Shown here one piece after another: positions 25,178-31,341 of a DNA stretch of 64,000 bases. The stretch's first letter is position 1; the number at the start of each line of letters is the position of its first letter. The DNA comes from Phycisphaerae bacterium (lineage in GTDB: Bacteria; Planctomycetota; Phycisphaerae; UBA1845; UTPLA1), in assembly GCA_019636475.1 (NCBI GenBank), contig JAHBXN010000004.1, positions 124,001-188,000 on the forward strand. The letters run 5' to 3'. The notes under the pieces are model-generated. The model saw nothing but the letters and a program-made list of their open reading frames with translations. It was not told the DNA's origin and ran no database searches. The translations under genes were made by a program, and so were the position numbers.

Positions 25178-28100
25178 ATGTCATCTACGTGCGGAAAGTG
25201 TCTCATCGCTCTGGCGTTATTGTGTTGCCTTGCACCGAATGTCCAGGCCCAGGAAACAATCACATTTGAATCCCTGCAGACGGGTTCCATCGTGTCGCAG
25301 GTCTTCAGTCAGGGTGGTGTCGGTCCTGTGGCAGTCAGTGGGTCGGTGAACCAGATCAACGGCAATGCGGCGGTGATCTTCGATTCGTCCAATCCATCCG
25401 CACTGGATCTCGATCTGGGTTCGCCCAACGGCCAATGCAATCCGGCCGGACCAGGAATCGGGCAGGGGGGAATTCCCGCGTCGATGTATGCCAACTGCAC
25501 GGCACTCGGAAAAATACTGATTGTTGCGGAAAACCTCACTGACGCAAATCCCGCGGACGGACTTGTTGACGTTCCGAACGACTCAGCCGGCGGAAACCCG
25601 ATGCTGCACTTCAATTTCAGCGCCATCGGCCCCGTCACACTTCAGAGCATCACCATTCTCGACATCGACCAGAATCCGAACGCCAAGGTTTATCTCTATT
25701 CGCCAAGTAATGCGCTGCTGAATCAGATCTCCATCCCCAATACGGGTGACAATGGAAAAGTCGTCCTCTCGCTCGGACCCACCGCCAACGTGGGCCGAAT
25801 GGTTGTGGCCCTCAAGGGCTCCGGTGCCGTGGACGACATCGTCTTCCTGACCGCTCCCACCACCCAGCCGGTTCGGGGTGCGTGCTGCCTTCCCAATGGC
25901 ACATGCATCGACAACGAGACTCCTTCGGACTGCTCCAACAAGCTTGGAACGTTCAAGGGTGCGGACTCGCTCTGCTCGCAGGTGAGCTGCCCTCAGCCCA
26001 CCGGCGCCTGCTGCCTGCCGAACGGAACCTGCACTGCCGATCAGACGGCGGCGCAGTGCACCGGCGCGAATGGCACCTTCCAGGGCGCTGGAACAACCTG
26101 CAACGGCGTCAGTTGCCCTCAGCCCACCGGCGCCTGCTGCCTGCCGAACGGAACCTGCTCGGCGAATCAGACGGCGGCACAGTGCTCCGGCGCGAATGGC
26201 ACCTTCCAGGGCGCGGGAACAACCTGCAACGGCGTGAGTTGCTCTCAGCCCACCGGCGCCTGCTGCCTGCCGAACGGAACCTGCTCGGCGAATCAGACGG
26301 CGGCACAGTGCTCCGGCGCGAATGGCACCTTCCAGGGCGCGGGAACAACCTGCAACGGCGTGAGTTGCCCGCCCCCGACGGGTGCTTGCTGCTTCTCCGA
26401 GATCGTTCAGGGTGTAACAGATCCCAACACCTGTTGCGCCGAACTGCTGGAGTCGGACTGCATATCCGACGGTGGCGTTTATCAGGGTAACTTCACGACC
26501 TGTGCGAACACCTTCTGCGACCTCGACCTCGACACCGTCCTGGACTGTACCGAATGTGAAAACTGTCTCAACGGTCCGATCAACATTACTGTCGATTCCC
26601 TGAATCACACCGTCGATCTCAACGGTTGCGAAGTGATTAATACCGGCTTCTCTGTGCCGCCAGCCGTTGGATGCACGCCGTTTGACACCCAGGTCTCAAC
26701 GACTTTCATCGCCGAGGCCTTGACGCGCACCTACCGGACATGCACCGGCTGCATCAATGTAATTCGCGAATGGGAAGCGGTTCAGATTCTGCCCGGCAAT
26801 GTGCAGGTCAGTCCCGCGCCAGGCGTGTGCTTCAGCTTTCAGCCGATTCCTGTTCAGGGGGACCCGAACGCCGAGCCGCGCGAGGTGCAAGTCACGATCA
26901 CATTCCGCTTTGCTAACGAAGACCCCAATTGTCCGGGACTCGCGGTATGCCCGGGCAACTATCTGCTCCGCCTCACTGAGCGGATCATTGAAGAACAGCC
27001 TTGCGAAGACACCTTCGCAAGGTCTGCAATCGGCGGCGACTGCGTCGCAAACGGCTGTTCGGATCCGAACGAGGTCTGCAACCCGAACACGGGTCGCTGC
27101 GAGATCGTCATCATCACGGAACAGCCGATCCCGCTGACCGATGAAGGCGCTTGCTGTCTTTGCGACGGCACCTGCCAGGACAATCTTACGCTGGGTGAAT
27201 GCGCAGCGGTAAATGGCATTTTCCGCGGCGAAGCGACAACCTGCGCGACGCTCCTGCTCGCGTGCGTGCCCCAGCCGCCGCTGCCCGACTGCAATAGCAA
27301 CGGGATTCCGGATGCCTGCGAATTGATCGGCAACGACTGCAACGGAAACGGAATCCCTGACGACTGCGAGCCGGATTGCAATAACAACGGCATTCCGGAT
27401 GATTGCGATATCGATCCGACCGATCCGGACGGCAACGGGCAGGTCAGCAAGGATTGCAACGGCAATCAGACACCCGACGAGTGCGATATCGATCCGACCG
27501 ATCCGGACGGCAACGGGCAGGTCAGCAAGGATTGCAACGGCAATCAGACACCCGACGAGTGCGATATCGATCCGACCGACCCGGACGGCAACGGACAGGT
27601 CAGCAAGGATTGCAACGGCAATCAGACACCCGACGAGTGCGATATCGATCCGACCGACCCGGACGGCAACGGGCAGGTCAGCAAGGATTGCAACACCGAC
27701 GGAATCCCCGATGAATGTCAGGTTCCGCCTGACTGCAACGGAAACGGCATCCCCGATGCCTGCGAGCCGGATTGCAATAACAACGGCATTCCGGACGATT
27801 GCGACATCGACCCGACCGATCCCGATGGAAACGGAAAGGTCAGCAAGGATTGCAACAAGGATGGAATTCCGGACGAGTGTCAACTCGTCAACAATGACTG
27901 CAACGGCAATGGAATTCCTGATGACTGTGAAGCCGATTGCAATAACAACGGCATTCCGGACGATTGCGACATCGACCCGACCGATCCGGACGGCAACGGC
28001 AAGGTCAGTGGCGACTGCAACAAGAACGGAATTCCCGACGAGTGCGATGTGGACCCGTCTGATCCGGATGGTAACGGCCAGGTCAGCAAGGACTGCAATG

Positions 28101-28471
28101 GCAACAAGATTCCCGACGAGTGCGATGTCAGCACAGCCGACCCGGACGGCAATAATGCCGTGAGTCCCGACTGCGACGGAAATGGCGTGCCGGACGAGTG
28201 CCAGACCGACACCGACGGCGACGGCATCATCGACGCGTGCGACAACTGTCCCGAAGTGCCAAATGCCGATCAGGCGGATGCGGACGGCGACGGCATCGGC
28301 GATGCCTGCGACGAACCCGGTCCGCAGCCTTGTCCCAATGGGGAGGGTGGCCTGAACATCCTGTTCAGCCTCCTCTTCCACTCCCCGGTTTGCGGCGGCG
28401 GCTGTCCGCTGATGATTGCCGGCACGATTTGCGGCCTCATGGCGTTCCGCTCGAGACGCCGTCGACGCTGA
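25178..28471 (+). CDS. Exported Cys-rich and thrombospondin-3-like repeat protein with C-terminal anchor
   Basis: A 1097-residue protein, AGGAGG seven bases ahead of ATG. Signal peptide: residues 1-24, ending VQAQ. Residues about 25-228 form a beta-rich domain beginning [20 protein letters not shown]. Residues about 229-410 carry repeats of the [10 protein letters not shown] type with a 42-residue period; a further [10 protein letters not shown] copy lies near 655. A middle domain follows. Residues 703-1047 are thrombospondin-3-like calcium-binding repeats ([28 protein letters not shown]). The last 30 residues are CGGGCP, a hydrophobic helix, then five to six arginines, which is the layout of a C-terminal sorting signal. 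Expected location is the cell surface or outer membrane. This repeat style is typical of Phycisphaerae; no enzymatic motif is present. A terminator follows at 28513. Confidence 0.85.
25991..26368 (+). repeat. 126-bp tandem repeats encoding the [10 protein letters not shown] module
   Basis: Three near-identical 126-base units start at 25991, 26117 and 26243; a degenerate unit precedes (about 25865) and another follows (26369). Units 2 and 3 differ by only a few bases. The period is exactly 42 codons, so the reading frame is kept and copy-number change would be tolerated. Confidence 0.9.
27404..27715 (+). repeat. 78-bp tandem repeats encoding thrombospondin-3-like calcium loops
   Basis: Four 78-base units start at 27404, 27482, 27560 and 27638 with almost no differences apart from the end of the fourth. 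Each encodes 26 residues containing [11 protein letters not shown] and [11 protein letters not shown]. Degenerate copies continue on both sides (about 27290-28300). Identity of the core units points to recent expansion. Confidence 0.92.
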
Positions 28472-28512
28472 TCGACGGCTGCGTCGGCGGCATTGATGAT
28501 GAGTGACCTTCT

Positions 28513-28547
28513 GCGGCGCCGGCTCTGAATGGGTCGGCGCCGCTTTT
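28513..28547 (+). terminator. Intrinsic terminator and group IIC intron insertion target
   Basis: GCGGCGCCG (28513-28521) pairs perfectly with CGGCGCCGC (28535-28543), loop of 13 bases, then TTTT (28544-28547). It ends the repeat-rich protein gene 42 bases after its stop. The intron begins at the next base. Confidence 0.85.
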
Positions 28548-29032
28548 GTTTGCCAGGCATGTGATGCGTGTTGGAGGTGTAAGTCCTCTGCGGGCCGTGA
28601 TGACCGGAACCGGCAGGGCAGGCCAGGGTGTCCATCGTGAGGTGGAATCTGAAGGGAGCTGTCGCCCAAGACTCGGACTCGACGAACAGGAACCGGATAC
28701 AAGGCCGTCCGCGATGGGTAACCCGGCAATGGACGGGGAGGCCCGATGGTCATTCGGAATCGCGGTCCGGTAGATCCGGCGAGGCCCGAGAGAAGGACGC
28801 ATCATTTAACCTGGGAGGCCTCTCCGCGTGTCCGCCTCGGCGGACTACCGAAGTGGCAACACACCGGGAAGCGCGGCGAGGAGTCAGCAGAGGCCATAGT
28901 AGATGGGTGCAGTCGGATCACTCGATTGAGGCACTCGCCCGAAAGGGGAGAAACCGTGGGACTCGCCGATCCGGGAACGATTCATTGAAGGGCCGAATTC
29001 TTTGATGCAAGGAGCCAGTCGGGAACGACTTG

Positions 29033-30103
29033 ATGGGTGTGAAGCGACAGCAAGGCGAGGGCGACCGGCAGTTGTCATTGTTCGATGACGACAGGGCGGC
29101 ACTTTCGCGCCACGGCGCAAGCAGCGAAGGCGGAACCGGACCTGCTGCGTGCGAGGAGCCGCAAACTCCCACGGCGTTGGACCCAGCACGAGCCTTGACC
29201 GAGCACCTGATGGAGGAGGTCTGCCAACGTGACAACCTGAACCAGGCGTATCGACGCGTCAAGACCAACAAAGGCGCTGCGGGCGTGGACGGGATGACCG
29301 TCCATGAACTGAGGGCGTGGTTGAAAGAGCACAAGGAGAATCTAATCGCTTCGCTGCTGGACGGTTCCTATCAACCGCGGCCGGTGCGCGGGGTTGAAAT
29401 CCGCAAGCCGGGCGGCGGGGTGCGACAATTGGGCATCCCGACGGTCGTGGACCGGCTGGTTCAGCAGGCGATCCTTCAAGTGCTCGAACCTCTGTTGGCC
29501 CCGACCTTTTCGGCATCGAGCTACGGATTTCGCCCGAAGCGCAGCGCGCACAATGCGCTGTCGGCGGCGCGGAAGTACGTGGCCGACGGACGCGCCATCG
29601 TCGTGGACCTCGACCTGGAGAAGAGCGCGGTGGCCCATGTATCGGAACGGAAGTTCCTGGGTCATCGCCTACTCGCGGGCGGCAGGTTGGGCATTGCTCC
29701 GGTGAGTCTTCAACGGGCGAAAGAGCGCATCCGGCAGATCACCCGGAGAAACCAGGGCGTAAGCCTCGAACGGATGATCTCGGAACTCAACTCGTTCCTG
29801 ACGGGATGGGTGACCTACTTCCGCCACGCCGCCTGTCGGGGTCATTTGCAGGACCTCGACCAGTGGATCAGGCGGAAGCTGAGATGCGTGCGGCTCAAGC
29901 AGCGGAAACGTGCGAAGTCAATCGCGGAATTCCTGCACAGTCTGGGCGTCCCGAAGAATCGTTCGTGGACGACGGCCGCGTGCGGGAAAGGCTGGTGGCG
30001 GACGACCGCCAGCCCGGCGGCGCACGAGGCCATGCCGCCTGCGTGGTTCAAGAAACTGGGTCTGGTCTGCCTCGCCGACAGGCATGCGGCGTTACCACAT
30101 TGA
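29033..30103 (+). pseudogene. ltrA: Group II intron reverse transcriptase/maturase, catalytic core deleted in frame
   Basis: A 356-residue frame. Residues about 55-197 match RT domains 0-2a: VKTNKGAAGVDGMTVHELRA, VEIRKPGGGVRQLGIPTVVD, SSYGFRPKRSAHNAL and VVDLDLEK. At 29617-29622 (GAGAAG) the sequence jumps straight to SAVAHVSERKFLGHRLL, which in intact enzymes lies after the YADD active site. About 115-120 residues are therefore gone, including the FFDRVNHD aspartates, TPQGGPLSP and YADD. Both flanks normally end or begin with Glu-Lys, so GAGAAG could be a deletion microhomology. The maturase domain (GVSLERMISELNSFLTGWVT, YFRHA) and C-terminus are intact and in frame. Reverse transcription is impossible; splicing help may remain. 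ATG 29033 is preferred to TTG 29030. Confidence 0.9.
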
Positions 30104-30108
30104 AGGAA

Positions 30109-30178
30109 ACCGCCGGATACGGTGAGTACGTCCGGTGGTGTGGGACGACGGGCGCCGCGAGGCGCCCTCCTACCCGAT
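30109..30178 (+). ncRNA. Group II intron RNA domains V and VI
   Basis: ACCGCCGGA (30109-30117) pairs with TCCGGTGGT (30131-30139); TAC/GTA forms a short upper stem around GGTGA, with a CG bulge, which is the domain V layout. Domain VI follows, with GGGCGCC/GGCGCCC forming its stem and an unpaired A in CTACCCGAT near the 3' end as the expected branch point. The upper stem is one pair shorter than in the O. iheyensis intron as I recall it. Confidence 0.75.
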
Positions 30179-30207
30179 TTGTTGGGTCGATGCGCGACGA
30201 GTCGGTT

Positions 30208-30312: not shown

Positions 30313-31341
30313 ATGTCATCGTCACCAGGCGCCGTCGACACTGCATACCGTTCGATTGAAGACCTGCAACCCGGCGACACAATCACCGACCAGGTTTTTC
30401 TCGTGTCCCAGCGCGACCTGCGCACGCAGAAAAACGGCGGGCTTTATATTCATTTCGTCTTCTCCGACCGCACCGGGCAGGTGCTTGCCCGAATGTGGCA
30501 GGCCACCCAGGAGCAGTTCGACCTCGTGCCGGATGGCGGATTCATTCGCATTCGCGGCCGCGTCGAAAGCTACCAGGGCAACAAGCAGATCATCGTGGAT
30601 GGATTGCGCCCGGCGTCGGCGGATCAGGTCGACGTGGCACACTTCATGCCGCACACGCCCTGTCCGATTGATGACTTGTGGGAACGTTGCCTGAAAGTCC
30701 TTCGGAGCATCAAGCACAAGCAGTTGCTCGCGCTCATCAAGGAGTTCATCACCGACGAGGAGTTGATCTCCCGTTTCAAGAAGGCGCCGGCTGCGGTCCA
30801 GAACCACCATGCGTATGTCGGAGGTCTGCTTGAACACACATGCAGCCTGCTTGAGCTGGCGGTGCGGATTCTCGGCTCGGGCGATACGTCGAGCAGCCAT
30901 TATCCGCGGGTCAATCGCGATCTTGTTCTGGCCGGACTTTTCTTTCACGACATCGGCAAAATTCACGAACTGACATACGACACCAATTTCGTCTATTCCA
31001 CTGAAGGCCAGTTAATCGGCCATATCACGCAGGCGGCGATTCTGATCGATCGGAAAATCGTGGAATGGCAGCGGCGGTCCGGAGAGGTTTTCGACGAGCA
31101 GATCCGCAATGTGCTACTGCACATCGTGCTGTCGCATCACGGGTCGTACGAGTTTGGCAGCCCGCGATTGCCGGCGTGCCCCGAGGCGATCCTCGTGCAT
31201 TACATCGACAACATCGATGCAAAGCTGTTCATGGCGTTCTCGGCGATTGACGAGGCACGCAAGGCCGACAGCGACTGGACCGAGTGGAGCAAAACGCTCT
31301 CCACGCGAATCTATAAAAAGGGGACTCCCCCGGCTCCGTGA
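30313..31341 (+). CDS. YhaM-like 3'-5' exoribonuclease (OB fold plus HD domain)
   Basis: A 342-residue cytoplasmic protein, ATG 30313 with AGGGG upstream. The frame stays open back into the intron, but that part is not homologous. Residues about 15-105 form an OB-fold (DTITDQVFLVSQRDLRTQKN, then IRIRGRVESYQGNKQIIV). Residues about 155-320 are an HD-type metal site: NHHAYVGGLLEHTCSLLELA, FFHDIGKIHEL, HIVLSHHGSYEFGSPRLPAC and HYIDNIDAKL. This order and the SHHG-EFGSP motif are those of YhaM/CBF1, which degrade RNA and single-stranded DNA from the 3' end. YhaM is best known from Firmicutes, but homologues occur in planctomycetes. Convergent with lpxD (12-base gap). Confidence 0.9.
   Translation: MSSSPGAVDTAYRSIEDLQPGDTITDQVFLVSQRDLRTQKNGGLYIHFVFSDRTGQVLARMWQATQEQFDLVPDGGFIRIRGRVESYQGNKQIIVDGLRPASADQVDVAHFMPHTPCPIDDLWERCLKVLRSIKHKQLLALIKEFITDEELISRFKKAPAAVQNHHAYVGGLLEHTCSLLELAVRILGSGDTSSSHYPRVNRDLVLAGLFFHDIGKIHELTYDTNFVYSTEGQLIGHITQAAILIDRKIVEWQRRSGEVFDEQIRNVLLHIVLSHHGSYEFGSPRLPACPEAILVHYIDNIDAKLFMAFSAIDEARKADSDWTEWSKTLSTRIYKKGTPPAP

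Follow-up and report, generated by a model that had tools for sequence, protein, structure and literature searches.

A group IIC intron in the window (the whole 64,000-nt stretch of DNA analysed) encodes a protein that has lost 117 internal codons of its reverse transcriptase (RT) core in frame. The deletion, an otherwise intact ORF and ribozyme, a terminator target and the ends of a further copy were all seen directly. Most probably one recent deletion has left this copy of a mobile class C intron RT-dead and non-autonomous.

Intron limits and insertion site

The following features were assigned to the intron RNA and its target.

28513..28547, + strand: intrinsic-terminator hairpin and T run, forming the 5' exon and insertion target (RNA fold)
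28548..30178, + strand: group IIC intron, 1631 nt, 5' GTTTG to CTACCCGAT 3' (conservation limits; matching copy ends)
28631..28803, + strand: ribozyme 5' region, domain I side (Rfam RF02001 group-II-D1D4-3, 126 bits, complete model 1-170)
28845..28932, + strand: ribozyme 5' region, downstream part (Rfam RF01998 group-II-D1D4-1, 44.2 bits, complete model 1-84)
30109..30178, + strand: domains V and VI, intact (alignment with relatives; RNA fold)

Limits were set by comparison with six full-length relatives, the conserved stretch running from GTTTG at 28548 to CTACCCGAT at about 30178; these positions correct the intron limits of the initial annotation. The 485-nt 5' ribozyme part was 70% identical to that of the relative L032, with 5 gaps and 2 inserted nt. 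Domains V and VI were 92-96% identical to those of L032, L027 and L030 (96% with L032) with zero indels, and 30109-30178 folded into two strong hairpins (-41.3 kcal/mol, z -3.86). A IIC-type ribozyme, domains V and VI and a 3' AY (the intron ends ...CCCGAT) are thus all present, and 28548-30178 is a complete-looking group IIC intron. Its 5' end differs from GUGYG, reading GTTTG where the relatives have GTGCG or GTGTG. Decay of the 5' splice site was ruled out as the cause, because GTTTG is also found in a second copy in the genome (at the start of contig C1) and at L039:2025, from a planctomycete. GTTTG is a rare natural variant in an otherwise typical member, GUGYG being a consensus and not a strict criterion.

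A terminator hairpin followed by a T run is the standard class C target (PMC4424553). At the window site, 28500-28562 folded into a strong GC hairpin (-31.1 kcal/mol, z -3.25), and in the 5' exon of the C1 copy the same TTTTGTTTG comes after an unrelated terminator hairpin, so that both sites lie behind a terminator hairpin as in group IIC. The preceding ORF (25178-28471) stops 77 nt before 28548, with its terminator between them, and the next gene-like reading frame downstream of the intron starts with ATG at 30314; no gene is therefore interrupted. The product of 25178-28471 is a secreted-looking protein of 1097 aa with ACCLPNGTC and DCNGNGIPD-type repeats, and a similar repeat stretch was seen near the end of contig C10.

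The intron-encoded protein

29033..30103, + strand: class C intron-encoded protein (IEP), 356 aa, without 117 internal codons (ORF, Pfam, 6ar1, relatives)
29033..29622, + strand: retained RT N-terminal half (fingers) up to motif A, VVDLDLEK (RVT_1 positions 1-77; GsI-IIC 3-142)
29623..30103, + strand: retained RT7, thumb-domain X (maturase) and C-terminal part (GIIM PF08388, E 9.8e-20; GsI-IIC to 416)

The IEP starts at ATG 29033, conserved in relatives together with M-G-V-K-R-Q-Q-G, and stops at 30103 with zero stops and zero frameshifts between. By sequence it is nearest to class C RTs and GsI-IIC. Pfam gave RVT_1 (profile positions 1-77 of 205) and GIIM (1-71 of 80) only, which is the class C arrangement of RT and domain X with no endonuclease domain. 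The NCBIfam model group_II_RT_mat scored 224.5, under its cut-off of 300, and was split over two stretches. Alignment to the GsI-IIC RT (6ar1) likewise fell into two blocks (query 59-198 to 3-142; query 189-353 to 250-416), and the GsI-IIC segment from past residue 142 to about 255 is absent.

L032 is the closest full-length relative (73% protein identity; 69-73% for the nearest three, L032, L030 and L027). With tblastn against it, exactly 351 nt (117 codons) were absent in frame 0, the gap running from just past motif A (VVDLDLEK) to KSAVAH..FLG and taking motif B and YADD. The Pfam, 6ar1 and L032 comparisons therefore bear out the in-frame loss of the RT core in a group IIC IEP proposed from the sequence, alignment with full-length class C RTs places it after motif A, and the earlier figure of about 115-120 absent residues becomes 117. 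Outside the gap, one of the 52 positions that are invariant in 24 relatives was altered (P to R in EIPKPG); by the same score, full-length members mostly had 0-2 changes of 87-89 positions.

An autonomous mobile intron has complete motifs A, B, YADD and D; here 117 residues that include motif B and YADD are gone, and this intron is probably not mobile by itself. To judge from the RT family, a protein that has lost motif B and YADD would be unable to reverse transcribe; with no polymerisation, the copy could not retro-mobilise on its own.

The deletion junction

29617..29622, + strand: deletion junction GAGAAG (Glu-Lys), 351 nt absent relative to full-length relatives (alignment of relatives)

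The junction, known from one assembled contig, reads GACCTGGAGAAG joined to AGCGCGGTG, with AAG at 29620-29622 as the last shared codon; the sequence crossing it is GACCTGGAGAAGAGCGCGGTG. It had been suggested that both flanks show Glu-Lys in complete enzymes and that GAGAAG microhomology mediated the deletion. The first statement is true of some members; in others the right-hand Glu is often another residue, and GAGAAG stands at both places in two of 62 full-length relatives (L166, L046). The left and right flanks share at least their last 3 nt in 43 of the 62 and 5-7 nt in 10. In L166 both sides read GGAGAAG, and no 351-nt deletion scored in that locus has more homology than these 7 nt. Microhomology (AAG at least, with GAGAAG plausible) is thus a plausible fit to the deletion and agrees with the flanks shared in relatives, which alone do not fix it as the mechanism.

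The frame was kept, as had been remarked (frame 0 against L032), but this carries no information. In 61 of the 62 full-length relatives a spacing of 117 codons separates the two Lys codons (118 in the remaining one), and a homologous EK-EK join removes that number, so that the frame is kept automatically. Frame retention is therefore not evidence of selection. Selection on the open frame was accordingly set aside as uninformative, the EK-EK join being in frame in all scored relatives and the copy matching its sister ends.

An assembly or sequencing artefact would be conceivable in a draft genome whose contigs break at repeats, the window intron among them. The homology of 6-7 nt is, however, far below any assembly k-mer, and neither the frame nor any of the flanking sequence shows a fault, which makes an artefact highly improbable. 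Contig-end overlaps were also considered as a clue to the k-mer size of the assembler and dropped; their lengths were variable and gave no single k.

Distribution of the deletion

The junction was searched for in the best 80 loci, 60 relatives, 397 genomes of the class and 392 of the phylum (about 890 genomes). No intact continuous match across it was found among those loci and genomes. The sole long continuous match, among the 397 genomes of the class, was a pseudogene in G259 with nine stops, and the junction pattern had no match in the other related loci examined or in IMG/VR viral contigs. The clean deletion form was seen once, in searches of a genome sample and the best loci, and this count is for that reason not an estimate of rarity.

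That the segment is naturally missing from some class C lineage could be supposed from the internal deletions in the class C proteins of L026, L053 and L054 and in the G259 pseudogene. The frames of L026, L053 and L054 are open with in-frame internal gaps, but their breakpoints, like that of G259, are other ones and further damage lies nearby; in L050 and L104 the internal gaps are out of frame. A shared deleted lineage was rejected on these grounds. A lineage of this kind, named at the outset as the finding that would overturn the reading, was looked for in the best 80 loci and about 890 genomes and not found, and is now exceedingly improbable. A further class C protein, L152, has an internal loss in or near the RT core, with another breakpoint and further damage.

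Further copies in the genome

The assembly consists of 18 contigs (4.41 Mb, 95% complete). Contig C1 starts, in reverse, with window positions 28544-28660 (117/117 nt) behind a different terminator, and contig C15 starts with 30146-30179 (34/34 nt), followed by a different 3' exon; in total 151/151 nt are identical between the window intron and the other copy ends. Because C1 and C15 end inside intron-identical sequence, the genome holds at least one further copy, known from its ends only. The genes flanking the C1 and C15 ends lie at different places in family members (synteny comparison in relatives), so that the two ends may border one copy or two.

No second RVT_1, GIIM or IEP match and no full-length RT was found in the 18 contigs. 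The genome search for a full-length homologue thus returned identical intron ends and no full-length RT, and the proposed dependence on another copy is consistent with the further copy at C1/C15, of which the ends are assembled. The deleted form may itself have been mobilised in trans and have spread, the copy at C1 and C15 having the same deletion. This is favoured by the intron ends at the edges of two other contigs, which match the window intron exactly, and by Thermosynechococcus, in which splicing and mobilisation of RT-less introns in trans are established (PMC2882425). The assembly, however, has no full-length driver and the C1/C15 copy is known from its ends only, and spread of the deleted form is unlikely.

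Elsewhere in the same genome, a weak RF02001 match (32.5 bits, cut-off 32) was seen at G000:C3:149994-150140 (L223:1501-1647), with no other intron part found; it may be what is left of an old intron. In another genome from this phylum, represented by one contig (G677:C1), the closest intron family occurs in at least five places, as full-length and nearly identical copies.

Predicted fold and proposed maturase function

An AlphaFold2 model (19 sequences; pTM 0.46) was confident for the fingers, about 60-155, and from 211 on, with low pLDDT over most of 157-202. Its best PDB matches were GsI-IIC RT structures, with a whole-chain superposition rmsd of about 17 Å. In the model the fingers and C-terminal parts appear not to be held together, the palm being absent. 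The evidence from the model is weak, predictions of this type being poor at registering deletions; it is consistent with a lost palm.

It was considered whether the short protein is a maintained maturase whose fingers and thumb-domain X bind the intron and aid splicing, as in RT-less organellar maturases. Its ORF is open and clean, domain X is well conserved and YADD is absent, as expected of an RT-less maturase. Class C ribozymes without protein splice hydrolytically at high Mg, and branching needs protein (PMC7161350). For another IIC intron, an RT-dead YAAA mutant protein still supports lariat splicing (PMC7161350), so that loss of RT alone leaves maturase function possible. YAAA is, however, a point mutation, whereas the 356-aa protein has lost its entire palm and is modelled with no ordered link. 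An intron kept for splicing would also be expected in a gene that needs it; this one is intergenic behind a terminator, and its splicing therefore serves no host gene. The open frame says little, because the copy, 151/151 identical to the other intron ends, is too young for its frame to signal selection, and the deletion was found in no relative. On this evidence a maintained maturase is quite unlikely, and for the splicing-only remnant suggested in the initial annotation there is no positive evidence, given the intergenic site, the identity to the other ends and the palm-less fold. A combined reading, in which a class C protein cut in one step to fingers and thumb-domain X still acts as a splicing factor and the short intron spreads in trans on a full-length sibling, is very unlikely.

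Comparison with known systems

Full-length class C introns (L032, L030, L027; GsI-IIC RT, PDB 6ar1) share with the window intron the ribozyme, terminator site, IEP N-terminus and domain X, and differ in having the 117-residue palm segment with TPQGGPLSP and YADD. O.i.I2 of Oceanobacillus iheyensis, compared by its description, is a bacterial precedent for an ORF without YADD and other RT motifs (PMC4424553), and was the only bacterial intron named in a 2015 review with a degenerate but open RT frame (PMC4424553). It belongs to the ML class and lies in radC, which is a reason to keep splicing, whereas the window intron is class C and intergenic. MatK-type organellar maturases have likewise lost RT function and kept domain X; MatK aligns with RT motifs 5-7 and not 0-4 (PMC4424553), whereas the 356-aa protein keeps every motif as far as A intact and has had its middle removed in one event. 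The trans-mobilised introns of Thermosynechococcus elongatus also combine an intact ribozyme, no working RT of their own and related genomic copies (PMC2882425). They are mobilised in trans, whereas for the window intron the assembly holds no driver RT and mobility is putative.

Serine-recombinase elements in motif A

In three other class C RT genes an element of about 2.5-2.75 kb was seen at the same place, interrupting the motif A codons GAGAAGTTCTT. It encodes a large serine recombinase (Resolvase, Recombinase and zinc ribbon; 686-742 aa) on the strand opposite to the RT.

L028:3505-5988: serine-recombinase element, Singulisphaera acidiphila
L060:3478-6214: serine-recombinase element, Cupriavidus necator plasmid
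L085:3406-6173: serine-recombinase element, Bradyrhizobium centrolobii

The contig of L039 ends just past a similar motif A junction. These sequences suggest that site-specific elements may use the conserved RT motif A as an attachment site in several bacterial groups; no description of such elements in RT motif A was found in a limited literature search. A tie between the deletion and an insertion of this kind was rejected: the site is a few nt from the left breakpoint, and the window intron has no trace of an element.

Origin and significance

We infer the loss of activity, the deletion mechanism, its recency and the dependence in trans from the observations above. A group IIC intron would first have inserted downstream of the terminator, as class C introns usually do. 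It would then have undergone a clean loss of 351 nt, for which slippage or template switching from the Glu-Lys codons of motif A to those of RT6, which are in phase with them, is the simplest mechanism; the remainder of motif A, together with motifs B and D and YADD, would have gone with it. What resulted would be a recently derived, non-autonomous form of a mobile intron that occurs at least once more in the genome; at most, the RNA of this deleted copy may still splice by hydrolysis, or with an intact protein in trans.

Most bacterial copies are described as truncated or inactivated (PMC4424553; PMC4496777). The window intron exemplifies this familiar type of decay neatly and shows nothing that points to a new function. 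Seen from the biology of its host, it marks an ordinary stage of mobile-intron decay; for the family it is a clean class C case, a natural deletion construct for testing the need for the palm in class C maturase function.
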